Source of the DNA: Sulfuricurvum sp. PD_MW2
Lineage (GTDB): Bacteria > Campylobacterota > Campylobacteria > Campylobacterales > Sulfurimonadaceae
Assembly (NCBI RefSeq): GCF_002633015.1
Contig: NZ_NSIU01000010.1
Span: 1 to 64,000, forward strand
Direction: 5' to 3'
Length of the DNA: 64,000 nt
Shown one piece after another: positions 5,891 to 30,068 of this stretch (positions are counted from its first letter, which is position 1; the number at the start of each line of letters is the position of its first letter). The notes beneath the pieces were generated by a model that was not told where the DNA came from, searched no databases, and worked only from the letters and a program-made list of their open reading frames with translations. The position numbers and the translations under genes were made by a program.

Positions 5891-7420
5891 TTAGCGAAAC
5901 CATAGCCTTAAAATTGCAAAAGAAAGTAGTATGTAACTACCATTTTCCCACCCCGCAATCCAAGCACCAAAAGCACCTAAAGCGAATGTGAGTGATGTAA
6001 CGATCGGACGTAAAGAAGTCTCAACGAGGTGCTTGAGACTTTCAACCTGCAGTGAGGAAATTTCTACATTGAGCTCCCCACGGCTGGCTTTGCGCAGAGT
6101 CTCTCTTGCGGCAATGAAATCATCCGGCAATCTGCGAATTTCATCACGAACAGTATCGAATAGTGATTCTTTTATCCCCAATGCTCTTGGAATATTCCGT
6201 TGTAAAATCGGAAGAATATCTTTGATACCATTGAAATTCTCAATATAGGATGTCCCTAATCCCTCGATGATAGCGCTTACACGCAGGATATAAATAGCCT
6301 CTTGAGGAAGTTTGAAAGGTAAGTTTTTTGTTTGTTCCATAACTTCAAAGGCTAGGTGCTGCATACTTCCGCTGCTGAGTGTATCATTGGAAAAAATCTC
6401 GAACATTCTCTCGGTAAACTCTGCCAACTCGGACGAAGGTGCGTCGTATGCTACTGTTCCCATCCGTTTTGCCGCACTCACGTATGCTTCATAATCACGC
6501 TCATTTGCAGCTTTGATGAGTTCTATAATCGCAACACGCATAGGATTGGAGACACGCTTAACCATCCCGAAATCAAGCAGTATCAGTTCACCCTCAGCAC
6601 TGATCAATAAATTCCCCGGGTGGGGATCAGCATGGAAAAAGCCTTTGACAAGCATTTGCTCGGTATAAAAACGGACCAGTTTATCAATGATTGGAGCTAT
6701 CTCTATGTGGTTTTCTTCAATAGATTTTCGATCGTCAAAACGAAATCCCTCTTCAAAACTCATTACAAGAGCATCTTCACCAGAGTACTGCGGATACGCA
6801 ATGGGGAATCGTATCCCGGAGTTCTCATAAACCGTACTAAAACGATCTAAATTTTGACGTTCGCGACGCATACTGCACTCTTGTATGATCATCGATGAAA
6901 ATTCTGAAATAACCGATTCGATAGAGTGGCGAGTCAAAGGAGAAAAAAGAGGACGAAAGAGACGATTAAATAATGCAACAATACGAAGATCAGCCCGAAT
7001 CCGTTTTTCAATTCCCTCTCTTCGAAGTTTAACGGCGACACGAACACCGTTGGGCAAAAATGCTTCATGGACTTGTCCGATGGAGGCAGAAGCGATTGGG
7101 ATCTCTTCGAATCGTTCAAACGGCCACTCTATAAATGAGCGTTTGAGCACTTTTTGATAATCCGTTGTACTCATTGCAGGTAAATCATCATGAATCGTTC
7201 GTAAAGCGACAAGATACCGCTCATCGAAAAAATCGTTACGGGTTGCCAGTATCTGAACCAGTTTCACAAAACTGGTCCCTAATATCATGACACTGTTGGA
7301 AAGTTGATCAGGTTCCAGGGCTCTGACACCCATAAAACTCTCTCGTTTTCTAATGAGAAGATAAAAACTGAGTAAAAGGCGAAAAACACGCCAGATACGC
7401 AGAGGAGAATAAAGTCCCAT
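5891..7420 (-). CDS. ABC1/AarF/UbiB family atypical kinase
   Basis: 509 residues. Family motifs are present in order: the Ala-rich loop IASASIGQVHEAFLPNG, the ATP lysine in VAVKLRREG, the HADPHPGNLL catalytic loop, the LLDFGMVKR metal site, and a C-terminal transmembrane pair (FALGAFGAWIAGW...SYILLSFAIL). The usual KxGQ motif reads KLVQ (Gly to Val). UbiB relatives support ubiquinone synthesis or lipid handling as ATPases, but this lineage is known for menaquinone, so the role is open. The stop overlaps the next upstream gene's frame (TGATG), showing coupling with the coiled-coil gene. Confidence 0.85.
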   Translation of the reverse strand: MGLYSPLRIWRVFRLLLSFYLLIRKRESFMGVRALEPDQLSNSVMILGTSFVKLVQILATRNDFFDERYLVALRTIHDDLPAMSTTDYQKVLKRSFIEWPFERFEEIPIASASIGQVHEAFLPNGVRVAVKLRREGIEKRIRADLRIVALFNRLFRPLFSPLTRHSIESVISEFSSMIIQECSMRRERQNLDRFSTVYENSGIRFPIAYPQYSGEDALVMSFEEGFRFDDRKSIEENHIEIAPIIDKLVRFYTEQMLVKGFFHADPHPGNLLISAEGELILLDFGMVKRVSNPMRVAIIELIKAANERDYEAYVSAAKRMGTVAYDAPSSELAEFTERMFEIFSNDTLSSGSMQHLAFEVMEQTKNLPFKLPQEAIYILRVSAIIEGLGTSYIENFNGIKDILPILQRNIPRALGIKESLFDTVRDEIRRLPDDFIAARETLRKASRGELNVEISSLQVESLKHLVETSLRPIVTSLTFALGAFGAWIAGWENGSYILLSFAILRLWFR

Positions 7421-7674
7421 CAGCGTTTCAATTCTTCAATATCCTGTTTTGTTGCGATTCCAAGTTCTTCTATAACTTCACGAATCGCCGATTTTATCTC
7501 TTCTTTGAGACGTTTTTCTTCGTCTTCACCTTTTGATTTCAAACTCTCTAGAAAACTTTTGGTATCGGTCGAATTGAGCTTCCCTTTTTCTTCAAGCTTT
7601 TTGAGTTCTTCTTCGACTCTCTCTTTGAGCAATAGTGCTCCGCCTACCCCAGTATAAAGTAACTCTTTTAACAT
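7420..7674 (-). CDS. Small charged coiled-coil (phasin-like) protein
   Basis: 84 residues from the ATG at 7674, preceded by GGAG. After a short hydrophobic start (LLYTGVGGALLL) the protein is a continuous highly charged helix (KERVEEELKKLEEKGK...), ending AIREVIEELGIATKQDIEELK. This resembles phasin or PhaF-type granule-associated proteins and the helical tails of poly-hydroxyalkanoate regulators. It is coupled to the ABC1 kinase gene. The kinase/helical-partner pairing is seen directly; the function is inferred only. Confidence 0.6.
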   Translation of the reverse strand: MLKELLYTGVGGALLLKERVEEELKKLEEKGKLNSTDTKSFLESLKSKGEDEEKRLKEEIKSAIREVIEELGIATKQDIEELKR

Positions 7675-7795
7675 GATTTTCTCCACACTTTTAGATAACT
7701 ACAGTATAAACTCAAAATATTAATATTTCTATAGTTTTTTTCTCTATATTTATAAAATTCAAACACTATAAAGATTGATATATTTTAATATTAAT

Positions 7796-9322
7796 CTAGA
7801 ATGAAAAAATAAGCTTTCCACCCACAAGATAATAATCATACCCTACCGTTTGTCCCATAGCGTAATTTCCTCCTTCAGCGTTTAGCTGGGCGGCGATATT
7901 CGGTGTGATTTGTTGACGGAGCAAAAGTGATCCGCCCCAGAACCAGTCATTGTGATCCAGTGCATATCGACGATAGCTCTGATGCCCGAAATAAGGTTCG
8001 ATGCTAATGGTTGTGCATTCGATTTGTTTGCTGGCTGAGAGATAAAATTGGTGAGATAAAAAACGCTCTGGATCAAAGTACCCTCCTCCGCTTTGTCGGT
8101 CATAGTTGAGATAACGGATACGATAGCCGACATCAACAAACGGGTCCTCTCGTAGATAGCGGTATCTCAGACCAACGATAAAATCATTCGCAAAATTATT
8201 GTCCGTATAGTCACGATAATTGTAATTTGCACTTCCTATCAATGTATCGGTAATAGAATATGTTCCAGCCAATGCATAGGTAGTCATGCCGATTTTATTA
8301 TTGATAAGCGCTGCCGTATCGGTTAAATAGTTTTTCGATAAACCGGCATAAAGCGAATAATTTTGATTACTATGAGAAATTGCCCCGTGGGTGATCGTCT
8401 TGTCAACTCCGTTCAGTTCTTGGAGTCCGGCACCTGCACTAACATTCCAATTGTTATCCAATGGAACCGACACATCAACATTGAGCATATCTGCATGAGC
8501 TTTTTGCGTATCACTCTCGGCCAATGTTTTTTGATATACAGATCTCACTGTAAAATTGTCACCGAAAAAAGTATATCCGCCTTCTAAACGGGTTGCTTCG
8601 TTAGAGTCGGTATCTTTGAAATAGCTCATTTGCGGGAAAGTGATTTCATGTTTTATCGGTCGTTTTTGATAGCATTTTTGCTCTTTATCAATCCGTACTG
8701 CGAGTTCTTTTAGCTCTTTTTCTTGGTAAGGGAGGGAACAAAGTGTTGAGGATCGAATCTCTTGCGCTTTTTCAAATTCTCCCAAGGATACATACGAGTG
8801 TGCCAAACCTACTCGGGTGTCAAATTGGTTTTCATCACGTAAAAGCGATTGATATATATTAATCGCTTCATGATTTTTTCCATTCCATCGGAGTAAATCA
8901 GCTTTGATTTTGAGGGCATCTTTGTTTTGAGGTGCGTGATTCAAAACGATTTGAATTTGTTCGTTTGCCCCTTTGAGATCCCCTTTCCATGAAAGTATAC
9001 GAGCCAACTCGGTTCTGGACGCATCATCATTCGGATTGGATTGAATCAACGTATTTAGAATCATGATTGAATCATCGTAGTGTTTTGCCCATGCGATTGC
9101 TACTGCCATCTTACGTGTTGTTTCAGCTGTCAACGTATGTTTTAGACTATCCGCATTATACGCTTCAACATAATAGGATGCAGCTTTTTCCAAGGCGTTT
9201 TGTTGAAGACTTGAATCGCCTTTTTCTTTTAATTCTCTGACCGTACTATCCAGTTCGATCCCAAACAGACCCTGTGAAGCAACCATCATACAAAGAATAT
9301 ATGACAAATAATGGGTATTCAT
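7796..9322 (-). CDS. TPR protein with YaiO-type outer membrane beta-barrel
   Basis: 508 residues: a signal peptide ending near SQGLFG, about four TPR-like helical repeats (residues 40-200, e.g. ALEKAASYYVEAYNADS and AHSYVSLGEFEKAQEI), then a C-terminal barrel with alternating aromatic strands ending LIFSF, as in the YaiO family. The TPR-plus-barrel architecture parallels PgaA, the outer-membrane exporter of poly-GlcNAc. It is the last gene of the exopolysaccharide operon, 1 nt behind the deacetylase-like gene. Predicted role: export of the polymer across the outer membrane. Confidence 0.75.
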   Translation of the reverse strand: MNTHYLSYILCMMVASQGLFGIELDSTVRELKEKGDSSLQQNALEKAASYYVEAYNADSLKHTLTAETTRKMAVAIAWAKHYDDSIMILNTLIQSNPNDDASRTELARILSWKGDLKGANEQIQIVLNHAPQNKDALKIKADLLRWNGKNHEAINIYQSLLRDENQFDTRVGLAHSYVSLGEFEKAQEIRSSTLCSLPYQEKELKELAVRIDKEQKCYQKRPIKHEITFPQMSYFKDTDSNEATRLEGGYTFFGDNFTVRSVYQKTLAESDTQKAHADMLNVDVSVPLDNNWNVSAGAGLQELNGVDKTITHGAISHSNQNYSLYAGLSKNYLTDTAALINNKIGMTTYALAGTYSITDTLIGSANYNYRDYTDNNFANDFIVGLRYRYLREDPFVDVGYRIRYLNYDRQSGGGYFDPERFLSHQFYLSASKQIECTTISIEPYFGHQSYRRYALDHNDWFWGGSLLLRQQITPNIAAQLNAEGGNYAMGQTVGYDYYLVGGKLIFSF

Positions 9323-10006
9323 CTAAACCCCTTTTAAATAAGCTTTGAAGAGCGATAGCTCAATCAGATTTTCCATTCTTTCACCTTTGAGGCCAATTGT
9401 ATTCAATGAAAGGGAATCTGATCGTATGAAATTCATTATATCATTTTCTTGATAAGATGAAATATTGATATTTTGTTGATGTATATGCAGTACAGAAAGA
9501 TTCGTTTTTATCTCTGAAAAAGGATTTTCATCCCCTAAAACGGCAATACGAAAATACGTGCTTTGGGCTAGTTGAATGAGTTCATCGTACCCTAACATGG
9601 GGTAATTCACCCCATTAACAAAAAGGGATTTCCCTATATGCACAGGTGATACCACCAAGGTGGCTTTCATCTGATACTCTATCAATAACGGTAATACATA
9701 ATTCGTAATTGTAATATCGGGCATTGAAAAGAGAAGTGCCATATTTTTCTTTTGGCTCTTTTGTTTGGCAGATTGCAATTCATCGACATAGCAGGTTTTG
9801 TATCCGTACTCATATAGATATTCCAAGTGGGTTGATAGTGCCTGAACCGAAACCGTTTTTTCCCTCTTTTCAACACTAATAAATCCATATTTCAAGATTG
9901 GACATGTGCCCTCTTCCGCTTTATTTGGTTCAATTGCGCCGAATACGGAGGTTGATAATGCAGTTGCAGAACAGATAGAAACACATATAAATTCTCTTCG
10001 TTTCAT
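9323..10006 (-). CDS. Polysaccharide deacetylase-fold protein lacking catalytic residues
   Basis: 227 residues from the ATG at 10006 (AGAGGGAA upstream). It has an N-terminal signal peptide (KRREFICVSICSATALSTSVFG). The fold is recognisable as PgaB/IcaB-like NodB homology: SVQALSTHLEYLYEYGYKTCYVDEL, then ALLFSMPDITITNYVLPLLIEYQMKATLVVS. At the position of the catalytic TFDDG it reads LFSMPD, and the HxxxH zinc motif region (FRIAVLGDENPFSEI) has no histidines. It is therefore probably a non-catalytic, perhaps polymer-binding, relative. It sits between the glycosidase-like and barrel genes, the place PgaB occupies in pga operons. Confidence 0.65.
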   Translation of the reverse strand: MKRREFICVSICSATALSTSVFGAIEPNKAEEGTCPILKYGFISVEKREKTVSVQALSTHLEYLYEYGYKTCYVDELQSAKQKSQKKNMALLFSMPDITITNYVLPLLIEYQMKATLVVSPVHIGKSLFVNGVNYPMLGYDELIQLAQSTYFRIAVLGDENPFSEIKTNLSVLHIHQQNINISSYQENDIMNFIRSDSLSLNTIGLKGERMENLIELSLFKAYLKGV

Positions 10007-10013
10007 TTCCCTC

Positions 10014-12386
10014 TTACCTCTTATCCGTTTTTTTGCGAAACCATTCTCGCAAGTGCGAAGCAGCAGGTTTTTCATACATGTGGAAACTCGGTGCATTCCA
10101 TCCATGAAAGCGATATGTTCCTATAGAATTGTTATTCCATGGTTTTGGCAACACATCGGTGACATAAAGATTTTTTTGGATCTGTTTTGCCCTAGGAGCG
10201 TCTTGTTCGTGCTCAAACACAACAGCAACGGTTTGTATTGCATCACAACTCAATGTTGGTTTATCTCCGGAACCGAGGATTTGTCGAGAGCTAGGATCAC
10301 TAAAATGGATCAGATGCCATGGAAGACGAATTTCCAACGATCTTTCATCACTATAAAAATCAGATCGTGAATTAAACTGTTTATTCTTTGGGTTTAGTGA
10401 ACCCTCGATCAGTTTTCCTGCATTATAAACGTATGATGGATAAAAAGTAGCGCCGTTCTTGCTTACTCTGCGTTCATTGGATTTGTGCAGGATAATACTC
10501 CAAAGTCCTTCCTCAGAAGAACTGAACGTTTGAGCGGTGTTGAGATATCTATCCAACGGAGTATAGATTAAGAGTCTACTCCCATGCGTTTTATCAATAT
10601 GGACAATAAAATGCAGATCAATGGGAGAGATAAGATTGACTCCCAAGGGTAATAGTTTTTCTCCATGCAGTTGGTTTGATAGATTTAAACCGATCAATAC
10701 GGAATCTTTTGACCACTCCATTGTCTCGTTAAAAAGGATTTTTAAATATAAAAACCCCTCATCATGCTGCATAAGCAATGATTGAAACTGATTCTTTTTG
10801 GAATCGTTAGCGTGATAAATACTAACGGCATCATTCCATTCATTGGATTTTGCATCCAAAGTGACCAGAGGTTTTGGATATCCTGGATACATCCCCATAA
10901 TTCCAAAGCTCTCCTCGGGATCTAAAGAGTTGAACCACAATGATTTACGCTCAAAAGGGATTAAATAAGGGAAAAATTGAATGTGTTTTTTACACCATTC
11001 ATCAAACCAGCTAAATAAAATCATCCCTGAAAAGTTGTGTTTTTCGAGCGTATTGCTCAATCGGATGATTTTTTGAGCCTGTGTCTCTTCATCCAATCCC
11101 CCTTGGTGATAACCGGATGGGTTCCAATGACCGCTGTTACGGCTTGAGGGAATGCCGTATTCTGCAATGACAACGGGCTGGTTTTTGTGATACTCTTTTA
11201 ACCTGCGGCAATACAAATCGTATCCATCTTCATGCGGGAAATCATTCATTAAAAAATCCGGATGATAGGGATAAACATGATACGAGGCGAAAAAACCGCT
11301 TCCGCGCAGAGGTGTAACCTTACGCAGATCCAGCACCTCTTTATCATCTTCATCTCTGCAATGGTTACAAGATGGAGAGAATCCTTGAAATCGAGCTGTC
11401 TCACATGGCCCAGCTTCTGAGAGATGTGTTAGGGGATCAAGCGTTGGCCAGTTGATTGTTGAAACAGGATGGGTGACTTTATACGCAGCGTGTTCGTATT
11501 TTTGTATGTCATCGCATCGTTTGGTAATCCACACCTCAAAAGGGGTTCCATCATCGATAGACAAATATTCTCCCGCAAATGAGCGTTCAGAACCTGTATA
11601 AAGAGCATTGTAATGCGTTATTGCACAACTTTCCCACTCTCTTCCCAACAAATAACCGATAAGCCATTGAGAGACATTGGCTCGATAGATGCCATGCGGA
11701 TAACCCGGTTTTTCATCTAATGAAAGATGGCCGTTGATGGCGTCAACACTTTGTTGAATTTGTTGTTTGACATAGGACATATAAGACGACTCATTAAAAT
11801 CACCTTCTCTTTTTTCAGGCAGTTCCAGCCAGATTTCTTGAAAGAAATAGAGTTTTTTCTGTGAAGCGGCATTGAACTCAAAGAGTGCTTCATAAAACGC
11901 AGGCGGATGCAATGTATATATTCTAATGCTGTTGAATCCTATCTCAGCGATTGATGCGAACCATTGTTTGTAGGTCGTTTTCCCGATGGCGTATTCTCCG
12001 GGAAAATATCCCGGTATCCCTAGCCCTATATTGACTCCGTAGATTGGGAAAGGTTTCCATCCGTTATCTTGTATTTCAATATGGTTGTCAAAGGAACGAA
12101 AATAAGAACTCGAAGCCATTGCAGGGAAAGTTTGCAGTTTTTTTTGTGCAGCGGTTTGTTCTATGAGGATGAGGATTTCAGATCGATTCGGAGACAAATC
12201 GAGGGCTTTGTAAAATGCCCATCTCGCTCCATCCCAATTGGATAGATTGAAAAAAGCCTTCCCCACCCCTATCCATTTATCGGATGAAATATCCTTTTCC
12301 AGTGAACGGCGAAAGAGGTTTAGGGCTTCTTGATAGTCCTGATTTGCAAGGGCTAAAATCCCTTTTTGATAATAATCATTTATCAT
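10014..12386 (-). CDS. TPR - glycoside hydrolase-like (TIM barrel) - CBM-like fusion
   Basis: 790 residues with no clear signal peptide. Residues 1-85 form TPR-like repeats (DYYQKGILALANQDYQEALNLF). Residues about 105-500 resemble a GH2/GH5-type TIM barrel (YGVNIGLGIPGYFPGEY, IGFNSIRIYTLHPP, GREWES as possible acid/base region, VVIAEYGIPSSRNSGHWNP as nucleophile strand). The last 250 residues (LDAKSNEWNDAVSIY...) look like a CBM9-type beta-sandwich. The start overlaps the GT2 stop by 4 nt. Likely processes or binds the polymer made by the operon; specificity unknown. The absence of an export signal on a putative glycosidase is odd. Confidence 0.65.
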   Translation of the reverse strand: MINDYYQKGILALANQDYQEALNLFRRSLEKDISSDKWIGVGKAFFNLSNWDGARWAFYKALDLSPNRSEILILIEQTAAQKKLQTFPAMASSSYFRSFDNHIEIQDNGWKPFPIYGVNIGLGIPGYFPGEYAIGKTTYKQWFASIAEIGFNSIRIYTLHPPAFYEALFEFNAASQKKLYFFQEIWLELPEKREGDFNESSYMSYVKQQIQQSVDAINGHLSLDEKPGYPHGIYRANVSQWLIGYLLGREWESCAITHYNALYTGSERSFAGEYLSIDDGTPFEVWITKRCDDIQKYEHAAYKVTHPVSTINWPTLDPLTHLSEAGPCETARFQGFSPSCNHCRDEDDKEVLDLRKVTPLRGSGFFASYHVYPYHPDFLMNDFPHEDGYDLYCRRLKEYHKNQPVVIAEYGIPSSRNSGHWNPSGYHQGGLDEETQAQKIIRLSNTLEKHNFSGMILFSWFDEWCKKHIQFFPYLIPFERKSLWFNSLDPEESFGIMGMYPGYPKPLVTLDAKSNEWNDAVSIYHANDSKKNQFQSLLMQHDEGFLYLKILFNETMEWSKDSVLIGLNLSNQLHGEKLLPLGVNLISPIDLHFIVHIDKTHGSRLLIYTPLDRYLNTAQTFSSSEEGLWSIILHKSNERRVSKNGATFYPSYVYNAGKLIEGSLNPKNKQFNSRSDFYSDERSLEIRLPWHLIHFSDPSSRQILGSGDKPTLSCDAIQTVAVVFEHEQDAPRAKQIQKNLYVTDVLPKPWNNNSIGTYRFHGWNAPSFHMYEKPAASHLREWFRKKTDKR

Positions 12387-13810
12387 TTTTGGATAGGTTT
12401 TGTTTCGCTTTTACCGGACTTATGAACGTATTCCCATGTGTAGGAGGTAAATAGAAATTTATATATGGCTTGAATACGCCACCATGCATTGAGTTGACGA
12501 TAACCGAAATGTTCCAATGCCCCATAGCTTAGCAAACGGATCAGATGGCGCCATGATGGATAACGTTTGATTGTCATCTCTTCGAGCAAAATCGTTGCCG
12601 AAGAGAGAAAAATACCATAGACGATTGCAAATAAAAGAAACAAGGTGAAGTATTCAACACTTAGCAATCCCAACCAATAGGCTAATGGCATAACGATAAA
12701 TCCAAGCAATTCGATAAATGCACCCGGAGCTTCGAGTAACACAAAATACGGAAGGGCAAAAAGACCTACCGTTTTGTATCGCGGATTAAACATCATCGAT
12801 TTATGTTTCCAGCATGCTTGGAACAATCCCACTTGCCAGCGTCGTCTTTGACGACCGAGCTCATGAAGAGACTCTGGAACTTCCGTCCAACAAATCGCAT
12901 CCAAAGCATAACTGATTTTAAACGGTTTATTTTCATGGGTGTAGAGTTTTTGGAGCTTGAAAACGATTTCCAAGTCCTCCGATACCTGATCACGACTGTA
13001 TCCGCCGCTGCGAATGACGGCATCTTTTAAAAAGAGAGAAAAAGCACCCGATAGAATCATGGATCCGTTCATGGCATTCCATCCGATACGACCGAACAGA
13101 AAGCTTCTCAAATATTCGACAATTTGGAACATAGGGAGCGTTTTATTCGGAAGTTCCGGAAGATTGGTCGTAATTTCAGGATGATTCATACCATTGAGCA
13201 CACGGACATCACCTCCGCAGGCGATAACGGGAACAGGATTTTCGATGACATGAACCATCATTTTCAAAAGTGCTCTCGGATCCAAAACCGAATCGGAATC
13301 TACCGAACAAAAATAGGGATAATGGCTGCTGTTTATCCCTGCATTCAATGCATCGGCTTTTCCGCCTTGTTCTTTATCTAAAACCAAAAAATTAGGGATC
13401 TCTTTCGAATAGTAAAATGAGTGAACCGCTTCGGTTTTTAGTATGTCACGATACAATAAAGTTGTTTTTTGCAAACGATATGTGTCAATGAGTTTTTGCA
13501 ATGTTGAATCTGTCGATCCGTCATTGATGACTATCACTTCGAAAGACGGGTATTCTTGGCTCAGGGCGGTTTCTACGGTACGAAGGATGACATTTTCTTC
13601 ATTGTGTGCGGGTATGATGATCGACACCGGAGGGGTCTCATTGGAATTCAGCCACAGCTGGTCTTCCACGTATTTGGCTTTTCTTGCCTGCCGAATAACG
13701 CTTATGAGTGCGATGGTAAGTAAAAGTGAATAGACTCCATTGAGTAAACCGTAATAGACACCGACACCGGCATTGAACAACAAAATGCTGAGTAATAAAA
13801 AATTATGCAT
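12383..13810 (-). CDS. Processive family 2 glycosyltransferase (exopolysaccharide synthase)
   Basis: 475 residues: two N-terminal membrane segments, a GT-A domain with VSIIIPAHNEEN, VINDGSTDST, KADALNAGI, the DxD site in CSVDSDS, SEDLEIVF, and the processivity motif QRRRW, then three C-terminal membrane segments. This is the architecture of PgaC/IcaA, cellulose and hyaluronan synthases, which polymerise and extrude sugars across the inner membrane. An AAGGAG site precedes the ATG. It overlaps the HEAT gene upstream (8 nt) and the glycosidase-like gene downstream (4 nt), so it belongs to one operon. I see no PilZ domain in it. Confidence 0.85.
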   Translation of the reverse strand: MHNFLLLSILLFNAGVGVYYGLLNGVYSLLLTIALISVIRQARKAKYVEDQLWLNSNETPPVSIIIPAHNEENVILRTVETALSQEYPSFEVIVINDGSTDSTLQKLIDTYRLQKTTLLYRDILKTEAVHSFYYSKEIPNFLVLDKEQGGKADALNAGINSSHYPYFCSVDSDSVLDPRALLKMMVHVIENPVPVIACGGDVRVLNGMNHPEITTNLPELPNKTLPMFQIVEYLRSFLFGRIGWNAMNGSMILSGAFSLFLKDAVIRSGGYSRDQVSEDLEIVFKLQKLYTHENKPFKISYALDAICWTEVPESLHELGRQRRRWQVGLFQACWKHKSMMFNPRYKTVGLFALPYFVLLEAPGAFIELLGFIVMPLAYWLGLLSVEYFTLFLLFAIVYGIFLSSATILLEEMTIKRYPSWRHLIRLLSYGALEHFGYRQLNAWWRIQAIYKFLFTSYTWEYVHKSGKSETKPIQK

Positions 13811-15059
13811 GGCTGTTCTCCTTGGTGGCTAAAAGATTCGTGATTGTTTGCCGTGTCAGTTCAGGATAGGCACCGAGATCGATATTGTTTTCCCAATCTA
13901 TCAACCCAATGTTATTTAAGTACTGCACAATGATTTTCGCATTATCGTAATAAGCCGATTCGGGTGAGATATAGCTCAAAAGCTCAGCAAAAAAGCCTTC
14001 CATTTGTATCGCTTCCGCAATCGATTCTTTTGCATAGTTGTCGTTACCTTGGATGATTTGCACCATCATGGTGAGAACATTCGCACCATAAGAGACCAGT
14101 AGTTCCGCGAAATTTCGACGAACCTGCCAAGCGCTATCTTCTAGTAAAAAGAGAAATTTCAATGCTTCATCTCGCTCTAAACGGTGTTTCAAAACGCCGA
14201 TAGCTTGAACGCGAACAAACCATTTCGGATGTTTTAGCATTTGTATTACAGGAGATAAATCAAACGAATTTTCAAGTGAAACATTACTCAAATGGCGCAA
14301 CGCACGAACAGACAATTCAGCATCGCCACTTTGTAAAATATCCAAACAATAGTGTATGGAATGCGTTGAAGAAGAACAGCGGCTAATCGTATCGAGCATG
14401 ACAAGTTGAGCTTCTTTCTGTGCATTAATTCGGTATAGACTGCAAGCTTCCAATAAAAGATCTAAATATTTTGGCGAAAACGTCAACAAAACCATTTCAG
14501 CATTTTTTTGAGATACTGAATGATGTTTTAATGCATCCGGCAATAAGACAACAATGGATTTCAATGCTTCATCGGTGGCGATAAGTGCCAGAGATTTAAA
14601 AATAACATTGATAAATTCCGTATTTTTCAGTGCGTTCCGTGCAGATTCTTCAAGAAGCGCAACGGATCCGTTATGTCGAAAACGGCCAATGCGATCAGCA
14701 GCAAATGCTTTTTTCTGGATGGATGCATGAGAAGAGAGTGTTGATTGGTATTTTTCGATATATCCCAATGCCTCGATCGTAGATAAAAAATGAAAATTTT
14801 CATTGTAATGGCGATACATCACCTCTTCCAATGCTTCAGAACGAAGAGGATCGGATTCTATCTCTTGCCGCAACGAAGCAATAGAGATACTCTCATTTTT
14901 TAAAATATGATCCAAACGCTCTTTATACTCGATTTTCAAACGGTCTAAACGTGCAAATCTTTTCTCATGTATCCATCGACGTGAAAACGTTGTTACAATG
15001 ATTCCGACAATGGAAACTGTGATGATAGCAATCAGGGAGATTAATATATTTTGCATCAT
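13803..15059 (-). CDS. Membrane-anchored HEAT-repeat protein
   Basis: 418 residues: an N-terminal membrane anchor (ILISLIAIITVSIVGIIVTTF), a short charged coiled coil, then HEAT-type repeats through most of the protein (for example VIQMLKHPKWFVRVQAIGVLKH and FLLEDSAWQVRRNFAELLVSYGA). It is the first gene of the exopolysaccharide operon and overlaps the synthase gene by 8 nt. It probably scaffolds or regulates the synthase on the cytoplasmic side. No enzymatic motif is visible. Confidence 0.72.
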   Translation of the reverse strand: MMQNILISLIAIITVSIVGIIVTTFSRRWIHEKRFARLDRLKIEYKERLDHILKNESISIASLRQEIESDPLRSEALEEVMYRHYNENFHFLSTIEALGYIEKYQSTLSSHASIQKKAFAADRIGRFRHNGSVALLEESARNALKNTEFINVIFKSLALIATDEALKSIVVLLPDALKHHSVSQKNAEMVLLTFSPKYLDLLLEACSLYRINAQKEAQLVMLDTISRCSSSTHSIHYCLDILQSGDAELSVRALRHLSNVSLENSFDLSPVIQMLKHPKWFVRVQAIGVLKHRLERDEALKFLFLLEDSAWQVRRNFAELLVSYGANVLTMMVQIIQGNDNYAKESIAEAIQMEGFFAELLSYISPESAYYDNAKIIVQYLNNIGLIDWENNIDLGAYPELTRQTITNLLATKENSHA

Positions 15060-15163: not shown

Positions 15164-16975
15164 TTAATATACCACTTTATTCCGTCCGCTGTATTTTGCT
15201 TCGTACAACAGCTCATCTGCGCGGTTTAAAAGGTGCTCACTGCTTTCCGCGTCATCGATCATAACAACTCCAAAAGAACAGGTGACTGTTCCGACATCTT
15301 TAAAATTGGTTGTACTGATTTTTTCTCGAATCATCTCTGCGACGTGCGCGGCTTCTTGCAAATCGGTATCCGGCAACAATATGACAAATTCTTCACCTCC
15401 CCATCGTGCGAAAAAATCACTGCGCCGAATTAACTGGGAAACAAGCTCAGATACATGTTGTAATACAGTGTCACCCACCAAATGACCATACGTATCATTC
15501 ACATTTTTAAAATGGTCGATATCAAAAAAGATAACGCTCAATCGATCATTTGTCCTCTGAGTGATTTTGATGGTATGTTCATATACCATTTCAAAATGGA
15601 ACCGGTTTGGAATCTTGGTCAGCGGATCGATCATGGTTTGCATCTGCATGACCGATATATCATTAAAGATAACGACATAACGAATCTCATCATTGACTTT
15701 AAGCACCGAAATTCTGACTTCAAAAATCGTCGTGAATCCATTGATCGTCATTTTTGCTTTATGACTTTTCAGAGGATGATTCAGCATATATTCGGTCCAA
15801 CGTTGATCATCATGCATTGGCATCAAAAATTCATTGGTATCCCCTGCTTCGAAATACTCGCAGACACACGCATGTTCTTTTTTAAAATGCTCAATGGTGT
15901 CATAGTCCAAATAGCTCAAAAATGAACTGTTAGCTGCAACAAGAGTCTCTCCATCGGTCACAATCACAGGAGAAGGAACAGAATCCAAAATCGTTTGAGA
16001 ATAGCGTTCCTGAAAACTCATTTTCGTCATGATATAGCGATAAATTCGATCGACAATCAAAACCGTCAGCACTATCAAACCAAACATAATAATGCCGGAC
16101 GCTACGATAGTATGCCTTGTATGTGATTTGAAATCATCGGATTGGCGTATGAAGAGGATATTTCCAACCTGTTTTGACGCATAGTTCTTCACTGGGAGTA
16201 CGTTTACTTGATATGTTTTATACGAATATGAGAAAAATGTATTTTCCAATTTGGAGTGCAATTTGGAATACTCCCTAAAAAACGGACGATATTGCACCGG
16301 TATGTCCATTCCGATACAGTGTCCGATTTCAATCGGATCATTGATGCGAGCAAAGTTTCCGAGTAATAGTTTATTGACAAAGAAAAAAGATTCATACCCT
16401 GCAAATCGATGAATTTTATCGGTGAAATAAGGTTCGGAAACTCCAAATTCTATTGCACCGATATAGACACCACGATCAAAAATCGGAATCATCAGTCGAT
16501 ATGCAAGCCCTTGTCTGCCCTCTTCAAACCCCGAAACATTTTGCTGTGTTTTATGTGTGTATGCGACCATTGGACGATGAAGTGCGATTGGATCTCCATA
16601 GACTTCCGGCTGATGCAATCGAAGCAAAGAGGTTCCGTCTGCATTATGAAACTGCATCACGACAAGCCAAGGATTTTCACGCTGCATCGCAATCCATTGA
16701 GGGCGCATAAGCGTATATAATTTCTTATGATCTTGCTTTCGGAAGGCTTCAATAACGCCCGGGATTTCGATATTTGTTTTGGCTCGAGAATGATAAAATG
16801 CATTTAAGTCATCTACTGTCTCATTATAGGTACGATATACCTGATTGTAGGCTTCGTTGATTCTCCGTTCTTCATCTTTTGAATCTCTGTACAAGTTGTA
16901 TCCCGTCGTTGTCGAAGAGACTAAAACAATCAACAAGATTAAAAAAACAATAACTTTCTTTTTGGAGTTATACAT
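15164..16975 (-). CDS. Membrane sensor diguanylate cyclase (periplasmic sensor-PAS-GGDEF)
   Basis: 603 residues: membrane segment 1 (about 9-27), a periplasmic dCache-type sensor (about 28-285, with VVMQFHNADGTSLLRLHQPEVYGD), membrane segment 2 (about 290-312), a PAS domain (YSQTILDSVPSPVIVTDGETLVAANSSF) and a C-terminal GGDEF domain. The active-site loop GGEEF is intact, with an RRSD inhibitory I-site five residues before it. It should make c-di-GMP and be product-inhibited. It lies between the exopolysaccharide operon and the GGDEF-EAL gene, 4 nt behind the latter, suggesting control of that polymer. Confidence 0.87.
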   Translation of the reverse strand: MYNSKKKVIVFLILLIVLVSSTTTGYNLYRDSKDEERRINEAYNQVYRTYNETVDDLNAFYHSRAKTNIEIPGVIEAFRKQDHKKLYTLMRPQWIAMQRENPWLVVMQFHNADGTSLLRLHQPEVYGDPIALHRPMVAYTHKTQQNVSGFEEGRQGLAYRLMIPIFDRGVYIGAIEFGVSEPYFTDKIHRFAGYESFFFVNKLLLGNFARINDPIEIGHCIGMDIPVQYRPFFREYSKLHSKLENTFFSYSYKTYQVNVLPVKNYASKQVGNILFIRQSDDFKSHTRHTIVASGIIMFGLIVLTVLIVDRIYRYIMTKMSFQERYSQTILDSVPSPVIVTDGETLVAANSSFLSYLDYDTIEHFKKEHACVCEYFEAGDTNEFLMPMHDDQRWTEYMLNHPLKSHKAKMTINGFTTIFEVRISVLKVNDEIRYVVIFNDISVMQMQTMIDPLTKIPNRFHFEMVYEHTIKITQRTNDRLSVIFFDIDHFKNVNDTYGHLVGDTVLQHVSELVSQLIRRSDFFARWGGEEFVILLPDTDLQEAAHVAEMIREKISTTNFKDVGTVTCSFGVVMIDDAESSEHLLNRADELLYEAKYSGRNKVVY

Positions 16976-16979
16976 CGCC

Positions 16980-19900
16980 CTATAGCCTTTTATTTGTTAT
17001 GCAATATGCTTCGAATGCTTCAATACTCAACGGACGACTGAAATAATACCCCTGATACGCTCCGCATCCAAAAGATTTCAACATGCTCAACTGCTCTTGT
17101 GTTTCAACACCTTCAGCTATGACAGATAGCCCCATGCTGTGTCCTAGTGCAATTGTTGACTTACAGATGATCGTGTCATTGGTATCACTCAAAATATCTC
17201 GTACAAACCCTTGATCTATTTTCAATTGATCCAACGGAAGACGTTTTAGATATGACAAAGAGGAGTATCCGGTTCCAAAATCATCTAAAGAAAAAGTGAT
17301 CCCGTACTCTTTTAGGGTTTCCATTTTTTCGATAACGTTTTCAATATTCTGTACCAATAAGCTTTCCGTCAATTCAAGTTTAAGCCGTTTTGGATCAATT
17401 TGATAGTGTTCAATTGTCTTGATGACACTATCCGCAAAATTGTTTTGATTGAACTGACGAGCGCTTACATTGACAGAAATGCTAAACGTTTCAAAGCCAT
17501 TTTGTTGACTCCATTGCTTGATTTGCTCGCACGCTGTTTGTAGAATCCATTCTCCCAGAGGGATGATCAAGCCAGTTTCTTCGGCAAGAGGTATAAACTC
17601 TAATGGTGAAACCATACCTCGAGTAGGATGATTCCATCGAATCAACGCTTCGGCACCATAAATTTCACCGTTATTGTAGACTTGCGGCTGATAATAAAGA
17701 GAAAATTGTCTCTCTTCAATCCCCCGTCGCATCTCCTCTTCCAGCAGTGCTCTGTCTTTTAACGATTTTTCCATTTCCGGATCAAAGAAACTTAGGGTGT
17801 TTCTACCCATCTCTTTGGATTGATACATCGCTAAATCTGCTTGTTTCATCAGTTCATCACTCGAGACACGGTCACTGTTGAAAAGTGTAATACCGACACT
17901 GGCAGTTGATTGATAGTTTATCTCATCAAGTACATACGGCTTATTCAATTCCGCTAATATTTTTTTCGCAATCTGCTCACACAAAGAGGCGGCATATTTC
18001 TCATCTAGCCCTATATTCGCAAGCAGTATGACAAACTCATCCCCACCTAATCTAGCGATGGTATCCCCGTCGCGAACACATTCGAGCAAGCGTTTGGCAG
18101 ATTGTTTGAGTAATATATCTCCTATCGCATGTCCCAATGTGTCATTGAGAGTTTTAAAATGGTCTAAATCGATAAACAAAAGTGCCCCGAATTGATGATT
18201 CGTTGCATACAGCTCCTGCATCTGGTTCAATCGCTCTATAAACAGTGTTTTATTCGGCAATTGCGTCAAGGTATCGAAAAAAGCGAGTCGATTGATCTCT
18301 TCTTCTGCACTTTTTCGTTCGGTAATATCTTGTACCGTTCCTATTGAACGAAGAGGCTTTCCTTGATCATCAAAATCACTGATGCCGCTCTCATGGACCC
18401 ATTTGATTCGTCCATCATCCATTAATAACCGATGCGTAATTTCATAAGGCTGTTGAGATGAGAGAGAAGTCATATAGGAATTGTTGACCATTTCTCTGTC
18501 TTCGGGATGAACAAGATTGGAAAAAGCGGCATACGTCGGAGTAAAATGGTGAGCATCTTGTTCGAATATTCGATAAACTTCTTCCGACCATATTAATGAA
18601 TTGTTGATCAAATCAAGCGCCCAGCTTCCCATATGGGCAACGTGCTGTGCGTCATTGAGCATTTTCGCATTGAGGCGCAAATCTTCTTGCATCTCTTTTT
18701 GTTTGGTTATGTCTTCATAGATACCCAAAACGCCTAAAATACTTCCATCTTTGTTTTTTAGGGGAATTTTGGACGTACTCAACCAGATCGTATTTCCATC
18801 CGGAGTCGTTTGATCCTCTTCATAAAAAAGTTTTGCCTCACCCGACTCAATTACCGCTCGATCATCTGCACGATAAAGTTCTGCCTGATCTCTCCATCCA
18901 AGCTGATAATCGTCTTTTCCGATTAAATCGGATGGATCTTCTAATCCTGCATCCCGTGCGAATAGAGTATTACACCCCATATAACGCAAATATTTATTTT
19001 TCCAAAATACTCGAATCGGTATAGTATCAATGATTGTATTGAGCAGATTGCGAGATTCAATAATTTCATCTTCCGCATTTTTCCATTCGGTAATGTCGGT
19101 ATCATTTCCCCGGTAGCCAAGCAAGCGACCATCAGGAGCCAGCAGAGGCAAACCATTGGTCATTAGCCATATCAGTTTTCCATCTTTGCGTTCAGCACAA
19201 TTTTTAAAATTACTAAAAGGCTCTTTACGTTTAATCACTTCAAAAGCGGCATTTTTAAACTCTTCACGTTCGGCAAGAGGGTGTAAATCGTAAAAATGCA
19301 TCCCTAATATCTCTTTTCGTGTATATCCCAAAACATCGTAAACAACATCACTCACATAGGTGTATTTTCCATCATAATCGACTTCCCATGCAATCGTTCG
19401 ACTGTGCTGTGAAAGTTCTTCCAAACGCTGTTGACTCTCCACGATTGTCTCGTGCTGATGGATAATATTCTCATCCGTACGTTTCAGTAATTGATAGATA
19501 AATCCCAAAATTAAGGTAGTAAAAAGCCCTCCGATGAGTGCTATGATTGATCCCATGTCAAAAAATTCGAGATTATTATTGGTTACATTTTGGACGACGA
19601 AAAGATCACCTACCTCTTTTCCGGAAACATCCTTAACGGGAAGGTTTGCAATACGGTAACTGTTTCCGTTGGATTCTAGTTCTTCATCCAGATTTTCATG
19701 TTTATGCTGAAGTGATAATTTGTTTTTCATATAAGAGGAAAAAGTATCCGGCAATTTTTCAAAGCTGGAATAAATGAGAACATCCGATGGAAATAATGCC
19801 CAGTTTGGTTCACGATTGAGAAGACGCATACCCTCTTCCCATTGATCTTTATTCAATCCCTTTTTGTGCAATACCATAATCAAATCAATATCGGATTGAA

Positions 19901-20510
19901 CATGCAGCATATGCAACACATCCTCAATTTCTTTACCCATTTCGACATAACCGAGCAACTCATTGTCGACGATTACAGGTTGAACCGTCCGTAATGTGAG
20001 CATTCCCATGGCACCGACTTCAATACCGGATGAAATATCGCGATGCCATTCAGCTTCCTGAGCCGTAAAACGGTCGATAAAATCCCCTTTTTTCCCGGGG
20101 TTGTGTACCCGTAAAAGACAGACTCTATGTTTGTCTAAAAAATAAAAATGGCTAAGGTTATTGCTCTCTTTCATTTTTTGGAAAGTATTTTGCCATTGAT
20201 GGAGTAATGCCGTAGAATCATTGTGACGCAGTGCTTCTTGTACATTATGATCTGATGCTATGACCTTAAGAGTGAGTGCAAGTGAAGATGCTTGTTCATT
20301 TAAAAGTGTCTGCATATTGCTATCGACTTCAGCAATATTTTTTGAAAATGTATCGTGAAGATAATGTTGATGCAGTTTGAATAAGGCAATAGCCATACCG
20401 AATGCGGTCAATACCACCAAAAGAGCTAGTGGTGTCATCAACCGGCGTGTCAATGTATTGGGACGAAACAGATTCAGTTTTGGATCTTGATGTGTGAACA
20501 ATTTTTTCAT
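16980..20510 (-). CDS. Multi-PAS GGDEF-EAL c-di-GMP protein with periplasmic sensor
   Basis: 1176 residues from the ATG at 20510 (AAGG 7 nt upstream; the frame opens at a TTG at 20516). Order: membrane segment (about 27-48), periplasmic Cache-like domain, membrane segment near 325-345, three PAS/PAC modules (QHSRTIAWEVDYDGKYTYVSD; IIDTIPIRVFWKN; MGSWALDLINNSLIWS), GGDEF with intact LGGDEF and upstream RDGD I-site, and EAL (EALIRWNHP, LDDFGTGYSSL, DQLKIDQGFV). Both active sites look intact, so it could make or degrade c-di-GMP. It is first of a two-gene unit with the sensor cyclase. Confidence 0.87.
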   Translation of the reverse strand: MKKLFTHQDPKLNLFRPNTLTRRLMTPLALLVVLTAFGMAIALFKLHQHYLHDTFSKNIAEVDSNMQTLLNEQASSLALTLKVIASDHNVQEALRHNDSTALLHQWQNTFQKMKESNNLSHFYFLDKHRVCLLRVHNPGKKGDFIDRFTAQEAEWHRDISSGIEVGAMGMLTLRTVQPVIVDNELLGYVEMGKEIEDVLHMLHVQSDIDLIMVLHKKGLNKDQWEEGMRLLNREPNWALFPSDVLIYSSFEKLPDTFSSYMKNKLSLQHKHENLDEELESNGNSYRIANLPVKDVSGKEVGDLFVVQNVTNNNLEFFDMGSIIALIGGLFTTLILGFIYQLLKRTDENIIHQHETIVESQQRLEELSQHSRTIAWEVDYDGKYTYVSDVVYDVLGYTRKEILGMHFYDLHPLAEREEFKNAAFEVIKRKEPFSNFKNCAERKDGKLIWLMTNGLPLLAPDGRLLGYRGNDTDITEWKNAEDEIIESRNLLNTIIDTIPIRVFWKNKYLRYMGCNTLFARDAGLEDPSDLIGKDDYQLGWRDQAELYRADDRAVIESGEAKLFYEEDQTTPDGNTIWLSTSKIPLKNKDGSILGVLGIYEDITKQKEMQEDLRLNAKMLNDAQHVAHMGSWALDLINNSLIWSEEVYRIFEQDAHHFTPTYAAFSNLVHPEDREMVNNSYMTSLSSQQPYEITHRLLMDDGRIKWVHESGISDFDDQGKPLRSIGTVQDITERKSAEEEINRLAFFDTLTQLPNKTLFIERLNQMQELYATNHQFGALLFIDLDHFKTLNDTLGHAIGDILLKQSAKRLLECVRDGDTIARLGGDEFVILLANIGLDEKYAASLCEQIAKKILAELNKPYVLDEINYQSTASVGITLFNSDRVSSDELMKQADLAMYQSKEMGRNTLSFFDPEMEKSLKDRALLEEEMRRGIEERQFSLYYQPQVYNNGEIYGAEALIRWNHPTRGMVSPLEFIPLAEETGLIIPLGEWILQTACEQIKQWSQQNGFETFSISVNVSARQFNQNNFADSVIKTIEHYQIDPKRLKLELTESLLVQNIENVIEKMETLKEYGITFSLDDFGTGYSSLSYLKRLPLDQLKIDQGFVRDILSDTNDTIICKSTIALGHSMGLSVIAEGVETQEQLSMLKSFGCGAYQGYYFSRPLSIEAFEAYCITNKRL

Positions 20511-20520
20511 GTTCAACCTT

Positions 20521-27278: not shown

Positions 27279-30068
27279 ATGTCAATGGAGAGAAGAGAAT
27301 TTTTAAAAAGCGCAGCTGCAGCGTCAGCTGCTGCTGCAGTTGGTATGACAGTTCCTGCAACCGTAGAAGCTGCGTCAAATCAAGCCCAAGCCGGATGGCG
27401 CTGGGACAAAGCGGCCTGCCGATTCTGCGGAACAGGTTGCGGAATCATGATGGCAACCAAAGATGACCGCATCGTTGCGGTAAAAGGCGACCCACTTGCT
27501 CCCGTTAATCGTGGCTTGAACTGTATCAAAGGGTACTTCAACGCGAAAATCATGTACGGTGCAGACCGTCTGACTCAACCTTTGTTGCGTATGAATGAGC
27601 AAGGCCAGTTTGATAAAAAAGGTAAGTTTAAACCGATTACTTGGCAACGTGCGTTTGATGAGATGGAAAAACAAATCAAATCGGCGCTCAAAGAAAAAGG
27701 TCCTACCGGTGTTGCTATGTTTAGCTCCGGACAACAAACTGTTATGGAGGGAAATGCGGCTCTCAAGCTCATGAAAGCAGGTTTCCGTACCAACAACATC
27801 GATCCGAATGCACGTCTTTGTATGGCATCAGCCGTTACCGGATTCATGAACGTTTTTGGTGCGGATGAGCCATCTGGATGTTACGATGATATTGAATTGG
27901 CTGAGACAATTGTCGCGTTTGGTTCAAACATGGCAGAAATGCACCCTATTCTTTGGTCACGTGTATCGGATCGCAAACTCAGCAATCCGGACAAAGTACA
28001 AGTTATCGTTCTTTCAACCTATAAACACCGTACAATGGACCTTGCGGACGTCGAGATTGTCTTTAAACCAAATACTGATTTGGCCATTTTCAACTATATT
28101 GCGCGCGAAATTGTTTACAATCATCCAGAAGCAATCGATTGGGATTTCGTCAATAAATACATCGTATTCGCAACCGGACCGGTCGATATCGGGTATGGTT
28201 TGCGAGAAGACATCCACCACCCTAAATACAAAAAAAGCGAACTGGATACTGCAGCGAAACAAAAGTCAAAAGTACTTACTGCAGATGAAGGTGTCAGCTT
28301 AGGTTACCTCGGATACAAAGCGGGTGATACGCTTGAGATGAAAAACAGCGGTGACGCGAATAAACACTGGAAAATTACGTTTGAAGAGTTCAAAAAAGGG
28401 CTTGCTCCGTATACACTTGACTACACTGCGAAAGTATCAAAAGGTGACCCGGATGAGAGCATTGAAGAGTTCAAAGCCAAACTTCAAAAAATGGCAGACC
28501 TCTATATCGAGAAAAATCGTAAAGCTCTTACTTTCTGGACAATGGGGTTCAATCAGCATACTCGCGGTACATGGGTAAACGAGCAAGCCTATATGATCCA
28601 TTTCCTCCTTGGAAAACAAGCGAAACCGGGAAGCGGTGCATTCTCACTAACCGGTCAACCATCAGCATGTGGAACTGCGCGTGAAGTAGGAACTTTTGCT
28701 CATCGTCTCCCAGCAGATATGGTCGTTATGAATCCTGAGCACCGCAAACGTGCAGAAGAAATCTGGAAGCTCCCTGCGGGAACAATTAATCCAAAAATGG
28801 GATCCCATTTCACCCAAATTCACCGTGATCTAGAAGATGGAAAAGTGAAATTTGCATGGGTCAGCGTTTGTAACCCGTATCAAGATACCGGAAATGCAGA
28901 ACACTGGATTAAAGCGGCGCGTGAAATGGATAATTTCATCGTTACCTCTGATGGTTACCCGGGTATTTCGGCAAAAGTATCGGATTTGATCCTCCCAAGT
29001 GCCATGATGTATGAAAAATGGGGAGCCTACGGTAATGCAGAACGTCGTACTCAACACTGGCGTCAACAAGTCACCCCTATCGGTGATGCAATGTCAGATA
29101 CATGGCAGTTTGTTGAGTTGTCAAAACGCTTTACTATCAAAGAGGTTTGGGGAGCGCAAAAAATTCCTGGTCTTGACACTGGTCTTCCTGATGTCCTAGG
29201 TACTGCAAAAGCAATGGGATATAAAGAAACCGATACCCTCTTTGATGTTTTATTCGCCAATCCAACCGCAAAAAGCTATAAATGGCCTGACGCAGTCGGT
29301 AAAGGGTTTCAAAACTCAGAAGTTGAAGGTGATAAACGTAACGTTATCGGAAGTGATGGCAAACCATTCAAAGGATACGGATTCTTTATCCAAAAATATC
29401 TTTGGGAAGAGTATCGTAAATTCGGAGATGGACATGGACATGACTATGCCGATTTCGACACATATCACAAAGTGCGTGGCTTGAAATGGCCGGTAGTAGA
29501 TGGTAAAGAGACTGCATGGCGCTATAACGCTAAATACGATCCGTATGCGAAAAAAGCGAACAGCGGTCCGTTTTCATTCTACGGACATGCATTCAAAGAG
29601 ATCCCATCCGGTAATCTAAAAGGTATTACAGACCAAACAAAAGTTCATTTGGACGGAAAAGCGAAAATTTTCTTCCGTCCGTATATGGAACCGACCGAAG
29701 TACCGGATAGCAACTACGATATCTGGCTATGTACCGGTCGTGTACTAGAACACTGGCACAGTGGAACCATGACAATGCGTGTTCCTGAACTCTACCGTGC
29801 TGTACCGGAAGCATTGTGCTATATGCATCCAAAAGATGCTGAAAAACGCGGTGTCAAACAAGGCGATATGGTGTGGGTTGAATCACGCCGCGGTAAAGTA
29901 AAAGCTCACGTTGAAACACGTGGCCGTAACCGCCCGCCGCGTGGATTGGTATTTGTTCCGTGGTTTGATGAAAAAGTTTATATCAATAAAGTTTGTTTGG
30001 ATCACACCTGCCCGATTTCAAAACAAATCGACCATAAAAAATGTGCTGTAAAAATTTATAAAGCCTAA
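27279..30068 (+). CDS. napA: Periplasmic nitrate reductase catalytic subunit NapA
   Basis: 929 residues. A Tat signal ([12 protein letters not shown]) is followed by the [4Fe-4S] site CRFCGTGC...C (C47, C50, C54, C82), and bis-MGD binding domains of the DMSO reductase family. NapA reduces nitrate to nitrite in the periplasm. AAGGAGG lies 7 nt upstream; the ATG at 27285 is an alternative. First gene of napAGHBFLD, the typical Campylobacterota order, lacking napC: NapGH supply quinol-derived electrons. Confidence 0.98.

Follow-up and report, generated by a model that had tools for sequence, protein, structure and literature searches.

A five-gene operon on the minus strand of the Sulfuricurvum sp. 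PD_MW2 DNA analysed here (contig NZ_NSIU01000010.1, positions 1 to 64,000; the whole 64,000-nucleotide stretch is referred to as the window) is probably a variant of synthase-dependent exopolysaccharide secretion, which lies outside Pga by curated protein models and is distinguished by an enzyme pair with a probable link to the twin-arginine translocation (Tat) pathway. Located at 7796-15059, it encodes, in this order, a HEAT-repeat protein, a glycosyltransferase of family 2 (GT2), a glycosidase fused to a tetratricopeptide repeat (TPR) region, a protein with the CE4 polysaccharide deacetylase fold, and a TPR protein with a predicted outer-membrane barrel, the spacings between the genes being -8, -4, +7, and 0 bp. 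The most unusual feature of the operon is the missing signal peptide of the glycosidase beside a deacetylase that has a Tat signal. On balance, we favour the view that the five genes constitute a synthase-dependent-like system for an exopolysaccharide, and that the glycosidase is exported via Tat together with the CE4 protein, be this an active deacetylase or a dead form descended from it. The more specific proposal, according to which a hydrolase without signal is carried through Tat by the deacetylase, and the deacetylase of the window is a dead escort kept for hydrolase export and assembly, is offered tentatively, as a plausible reading that falls somewhat short of being probable.

In the favoured view, the sugar would be polymerized by the GT2 at the cytoplasmic face and the polymer extruded by the same enzyme, as suggested by its motifs and transmembrane (TM) segments, with the membrane-anchored HEAT protein presumably assisting. 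The chain would be trimmed in the periplasm by a clan GH-A-like glycosidase, would be modified in most relatives by the CE4 deacetylase, the catalytic residues of which are gone in the window copy, and would be taken across the outer membrane by the TPR-barrel protein, whose similarity is PgaA-like. Glycosidase and CE4 protein would be folded jointly before export and would leave the cytoplasm as a complex via Tat, in the manner of hitchhiker pairs. Such co-export would account for the persistence of signal and fold in the dead deacetylase, which would be retained as an export escort or scaffold.

The Glycosidase and the Tat Pattern

The glycosidase (790 amino acids; 10014-12386, minus strand) is a TPR-glycosidase fusion with a part resembling a carbohydrate-binding module. 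In its AlphaFold2 model (mean confidence score, pLDDT, 77), helices of the TPR type are followed by a (beta/alpha)8 domain and, at the C-terminus, by a domain rich in beta-strands. The TPR helices (amino acids 5-83; 12138-12374) are recognized by Pfam as TPR_2/TPR_16 and appear as helix pairs in the model, and the C-terminal domain (amino acids about 505-750; 10137-10874), which is built of strands and possibly carbohydrate binding, has no Pfam match. Two glutamates, Glu250 following beta4 (242-247; codon at 11637-11639) and Glu409 on beta7 (405-410; codon at 11160-11162), conform to the clan GH-A pattern, are present in 23 of 23 homologues, and are candidates for the acid/base and the nucleophile, respectively. 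The best match of the glycoside hydrolase (GH) domain among solved structures is to GH157, namely, the endo-beta-1,3-glucanase LaGH157 (PDB 9g4n), which has the two conserved glutamates as well (Z 26.2, root-mean-square deviation 2.8 over 292 residues); it is, however, only 17% identical to the window protein, which in contrast is TPR fused and without signal peptide. Structures of GH5 and GH2 follow (Z about 23-24), and the list of structural matches consists mostly of GH-A families, a predominance that would be compatible with other GH families as well. Barrel, glutamate positions, and structural matches together identify the protein as a predicted clan GH-A glycosidase. A PDB search with its sequence returned TPR matches only. 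A beta-glucan polymer, as hinted at by the likeness to GH157, was considered and found too weak for a claim.

The neighbouring CE4 gene can be read from 10105, where the first-pass annotation of this DNA had placed its start; most likely, however, it begins at 10006 (MKRREF), since it is only from there that the twin-arginine signal is N-terminal. All 19 CE4 proteins from operons of this type have an N-terminal twin-arginine signal, mostly as [ST]RRxFLK and in the window copy as KRREFIC (arginine pair at 9995-10000), and TatC is encoded in the genome (210 bits over cut-off). By its type of signal, its hydrophobic region, and the Tat machinery of its host, the CE4 protein is a predicted Tat substrate. 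The glycosidase, for its part, is devoid of a signal peptide in all 18 copies with intact N-terminus, every one of which is adjacent to a CE4 protein with Tat signal. The maximal N-terminal hydropathy of the glycosidases is bimodal, ranging from -0.35 to 0.99 in signal-less copies versus 2.44 to 2.79 in five divergent copies that have a signal of their own, either preceding the TPR (loci L062 and L063) or as lipoproteins without TPR (L058-L060). The CE4 protein of the operon family is absent from the loci of all five signal-bearing copies, and the best CE4 matches in their genomes reach at most 117 bits versus 229-413 bits for operon members; the cleanest case is L062, with HEAT protein, GT2, signal-bearing glycosidase, and barrel, and without CE4. 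The TPR-glycosidases of L062 (4818-8885) and L063 (618-4733) also include an additional C-terminal region of about 450 amino acids. Neither the twin-arginine signal of the deacetylase nor the missing signal of the glycosidase had been mentioned in the first-pass annotation.

Precedents for Tat hitchhiking are known from HybC, which travels with HybO, and from PaoBC, which travels with PaoA (PMC4273604). As in HybOC and PaoABC, a signal-less protein is genetically paired with a Tat-signal partner in the window; those complexes are, however, cofactor-containing oxidoreductases, whereas here a glycosidase would be paired with a deacetylase or a dead form of it. A doubtful, if serious, alternative is that the TPR-glycosidase stays in the cytoplasm, where it would trim aborted chains, process a primer, or bind to the synthase/HEAT complex, the Tat signal of the CE4 protein being unrelated. 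This would agree with the signal peptide missing in 18 copies and with the fact that TPR and HEAT repeats are typical interaction modules, the HEAT domain being predicted to be cytoplasmic. On the other hand, the related glycosidases of L062 and L063 (with TPR) and of L058-L060 (lacking it) are clearly secreted proteins or lipoproteins, a hydrolase in the cytoplasm would seldom encounter a substrate that the synthase extrudes, and the pairing with a Tat-signal CE4 protein would be left unexplained.

The Deacetylase and Its Lost Catalytic Residues

From MKRREF, the CE4-like protein comprises 227 amino acids (9323-10006, minus strand). Its Pfam match to polysaccharide deacetylases is marginal, and a PDB search with the sequence gave one weak, unrelated match only. 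The fold is evident from the AlphaFold2 model, which has a core mostly above pLDDT 80 and a NodB fold of the PgaB type; compared with the PDB, it gave 13 matches at E <= 0.001, all of them deacetylases (PgaB, IcaB, and others). Alignment places the lost TFDD metal/catalytic motif at 9722-9733, reading LFSM (TFDDG replaced by LFSMP), and the lost HxxxxH metal-binding motif at 9521-9538, where L157 and P162 stand in place of the histidines. These residues are missing in the window copy and in its 75%-identical sibling L026 only, both of which keep an open frame; in the other loci, TFDDG and GCHxxxxH are intact throughout (17 of 17). The "dead deacetylase" of the first-pass annotation is thus real in the window and in L026 but not defining for the system.

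Since frame, arginine signal, and NodB fold are kept, the dead protein is better understood as a pseudoenzyme that has been retained than as a pseudogene of recent origin. Between window and L026 (dS 1.1-1.6), the ratio of nonsynonymous to synonymous substitution rates (dN/dS) is 0.27 for the CE4 gene and 0.04-0.16 for the remaining four, the CE4 value being the highest of the five and derived from a single pair with near-saturated dS; the GC content of the CE4 gene is the lowest of the five. Constraint on the dead gene is relaxed, though the gene is retained. Loss of all catalytic motifs, the highest dN/dS, and the lowest GC content would fit the idea that the gene is decaying and functionless, and that the Tat pattern is incidental, but this is unlikely in view of the open frame in both carriers at a dS of about 1.1, the dN/dS of 0.27, and the persistence of arginine signal and fold.

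Synthase, HEAT Protein, and Barrel

The GT2 (475 amino acids; 12383-13810, minus strand; Glycos_transf_2, 85.7 bits) is a predicted processive polysaccharide synthase. It contains the motifs NDGSTD, DSD, SED, and QRRRW, has hydrophobic segments at both termini as is the case in processive synthases, and is 39-90% identical to its counterparts in the other operons. The HEAT-repeat protein (418 amino acids; 13803-15059, minus strand; Pfam HEAT_2, 37.5 bits) has a single N-terminal TM segment (residues 5-23) followed by RRWIHEKR; residues R27, R28, and D39 are invariant in 12 homologues. It is predicted to be a cytoplasmic, membrane-anchored scaffold or a co-polymerase-like partner of the synthase, and may serve as a replacement for a co-polymerase. 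None of the five operon proteins has a Pfam match to PilZ. The last gene (7796-9322, minus strand) encodes a 508-amino acid TPR protein, the predicted exporter, with 28-75% identity to its counterparts; its TPR part is clear by Pfam, and a C-terminal barrel is predicted from a weak PgaA match over residues 36-427. It is unmatched by the YaiO model TIGR04390, whereas the barrels of three other loci, L041, L050, and L051, are matched. All five open reading frames had been reported by the first-pass annotation and are present at the positions given there, the start of the CE4 gene being amended as above.

Recurrence of the Gene Set

The gene set is found whole or nearly whole in about 18 other genomes, and the arrangement is not due to chance. 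With the profile of the 790-amino acid protein, 15 loci were retrieved from named genomes; six further loci came from genomes assigned to the same phylum as L028 and L034. The hosts are Campylobacterales including Sulfuricurvum, Geobacteraceae and other Deltaproteobacteria (Desulfobacterota), Thermodesulfovibrio (Nitrospirota-type), Thermodesulfobacterium, and uncultured bacteria. Most loci share the gene order HEAT-GT2-TPR-GH-CE4-barrel, exceptions including L062, L063, and loci cut by contig ends. Beyond the Campylobacterota, for which the first-pass annotation had suggested a neighbourhood survey, the set is coherent and recurrent across several phyla. Two of 36 other genomes of the genus were positive and none of the remaining genomes tallied (the total of 3 in 60 includes the window's own genome), and about 397 Campylobacterota genomes contained no other full-length match; in the order of L027, five of 141 genomes were positive, and in the phylum of L028 eight of 295. 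This sporadic distribution suggests horizontal spread.

At the sibling locus L026, inverted repeats of 28 nt (98-125 and 8090-8117; 89% complementary) bracket the operon. A 17-base core of the repeat is present five times in the L026 genome, in part close to contig ends, and is absent from the window's genome; the repeat may be mobile or assembly breaking. In a Sulfuricurvum metagenome-assembled genome, the GT2 gene has an in-frame TAA (L030:8868-8953, also L010), and the system may be off there unless an assembly error is responsible. In the Thermodesulfobacterium hveragerdense draft (L038:8590-10771), the GT2 is split into two open reading frames and the TPR-glycosidase is cut to 257 amino acids; the L040 copy is intact.

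Relation to Pga and Other Systems

Five synthase-dependent exopolysaccharide machines are covered in a survey of the known ones (PMC7112194). The operon does not contain the core genes of Pel, Bcs, or alginate. Its best curated matches are all Pga proteins, with 138 bits for the GT2 against PgaC_IcaA (TIGR03937; cut-off 422), 22 bits for the CE4 protein against PgaB (TIGR03938; cut-off 322), and 53 bits for the barrel protein against PgaA (TIGR03939; cut-off 367). These scores are far below the cut-offs; with Pga proteins as the best match in each case, the operon is regarded as a divergent relative of Pga in its architecture and not as an unrelated machine. It shares with pgaABCD, which is responsible for poly-N-acetylglucosamine (PNAG), a PgaC-like processive GT2, a CE4 domain, a predicted hydrolase activity, TPR with a predicted outer-membrane barrel, and a similar division of labour; it differs in that CE4 protein (227-260 amino acids) and hydrolase are separate proteins, in the GH-A/GH157-like hydrolase with TPR of its own, in the HEAT protein and the Tat-type CE4 signal, and in that no PgaD-like protein was seen in it. 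Deacetylase and hydrolase are likewise coupled in PgaB of E. coli, where, however, both reside in a single periplasmic protein; the window pair is linked only by gene order and, by inference, Tat co-export. In the Pga system, the TPR of PgaA binds the deacetylase domain of PgaB and boosts deacetylase and hydrolase activities (PMC9384988). The genome encodes a separate PgaB-like (663 amino acids) and PgaC-like (430 amino acids) pair on another contig, which makes the window operon an additional system.

It is improbable that the operon is simply a divergent pga operon which makes PNAG, whether or not partly deacetylated, and in which PgaB has been divided into CE4 and hydrolase proteins. The curated matches named above and the proximity of the dead CE4 protein to PgaB and IcaB structures would agree with it, whereas the scores under the equivalog cut-offs, the resemblance of the hydrolase to GH157, GH5, and GH2 without a PgaB match, the separate PgaB-like and PgaC-like genes, and the lack of a visible PgaD-like protein argue against it. 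The distinctness from Pga, Pel, Bcs, and alginate maintained by the first-pass annotation therefore stands as far as cut-offs and core genes are concerned, but the parts are still Pga related. That the GT2 would make a lipid- or protein-linked glycan instead of a free exopolysaccharide is very improbable, for although GT2 enzymes are diverse, QRRRW and the C-terminal TM segments are as in processive synthases, and a predicted TPR outer-membrane protein and polymer-modifying enzymes are linked in nearly all copies.

A further locus type combines HEAT protein, GT2 (37% identical in L050), and TPR-barrel in one cluster. It was seen at L050 and L051, which belong to other Campylobacterota, and at L041, on a Bacteroidota-like contig, and differs from the window operon in the YaiO-type barrel and in the absence of TPR-glycosidase and Tat-CE4. 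That the HEAT family is shared is hinted at by gene order and weakly by profile. HEAT-GT2-TPR barrel may be the broader core, with TPR-GH and Tat-CE4 as one elaboration of it. L041 (G447:C288) is a contig with Bacteroidota-like genes within a Sulfuricurvum metagenome-assembled genome, probably due to bin contamination. Immediately behind the barrel gene, two loci of different type (L041:9546-10715 and L062:2085-3212) encode proteins of about 380 amino acids with similar N-terminal regions (VIDKTVKDQSYQEH and VILDKTVPKPTYREH, respectively); the L041 copy is without family match. In the literature searched, coverage of which was incomplete, neither a named polysaccharide locus nor any other description of the gene set was found, nor a paper joining HEAT, GT2, and exopolysaccharide in the sense of this operon; PMC12419801 uses HEAT for beta-catenin only.

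Points That Weigh against the Proposal

Several points count against an exopolysaccharide system with Tat co-export of the glycosidase. The signal calls are based on hydropathy and not on a trained predictor. In a tree, the five signal-bearing glycosidases can all be placed to the same side of one branch (support 70/62), so that the complementarity of signal and partner may reflect one evolutionary event, and a Fisher p of 3e-5 for this pattern is not independent evidence because the single branch is ignored in it. The complex of glycosidase and CE4 protein would follow from genetic pairing and signal pattern, and the outer-membrane barrel is predicted from weak similarity to PgaA. No significant GH family was assigned to the GH domain by Pfam (GH113 at E=0.15). 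In L035, HEAT and GT2 genes are divergent, and in L027 no HEAT gene was detected. Finally, the elevated dN/dS of the CE4 gene has to be counted here.

Neighbouring Genes

Upstream of the operon lie two cyclic di-GMP genes on the minus strand, as the first-pass annotation had reported. One, 104 bp away, encodes a dCache-PAS-GGDEF diguanylate cyclase (15164-16975; Pfam GGDEF, 160.8 bits), the other a dCache-PAS-GGDEF-EAL protein (16980-20516; Pfam EAL, 263.9 bits; GGDEF, EAL, and DDFGTG motifs); across the two, GGEEF, GGDEF, and EAL are present. The genes are real, but as a conserved part of the operon they were rejected, since L026 and most of the other operons lack them upstream; in the fetched flanks, a GGDEF gene was seen at L039 only, and a short-chain-dehydrogenase-like fragment was read by eye upstream of L026. 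Just downstream of the barrel gene, a small protein with weak phasin-like similarity (7420-7686) overlaps the start of an ABC1/UbiB kinase gene. At 27279-30068, a molybdopterin oxidoreductase resembling periplasmic nitrate reductase is encoded, a class typical as Tat cargo. Rfam and tRNA scans gave no matches, and promoter and terminator scans gave matches below shuffle expectation, which were not used.

Significance

A recurrent and apparently unnamed gene set in several phyla of thermophiles and of sulfur and iron bacteria opens more ground in which biofilm polymers can be sought. Should the glycosidase prove to hitchhike on Tat, a stable deacetylase-hydrolase complex would be predicted in place of the single PgaB chain, and a reason would be given for keeping a dead enzyme. 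Co-export of folded complexes would then extend from cofactor enzymes to polysaccharide processing.

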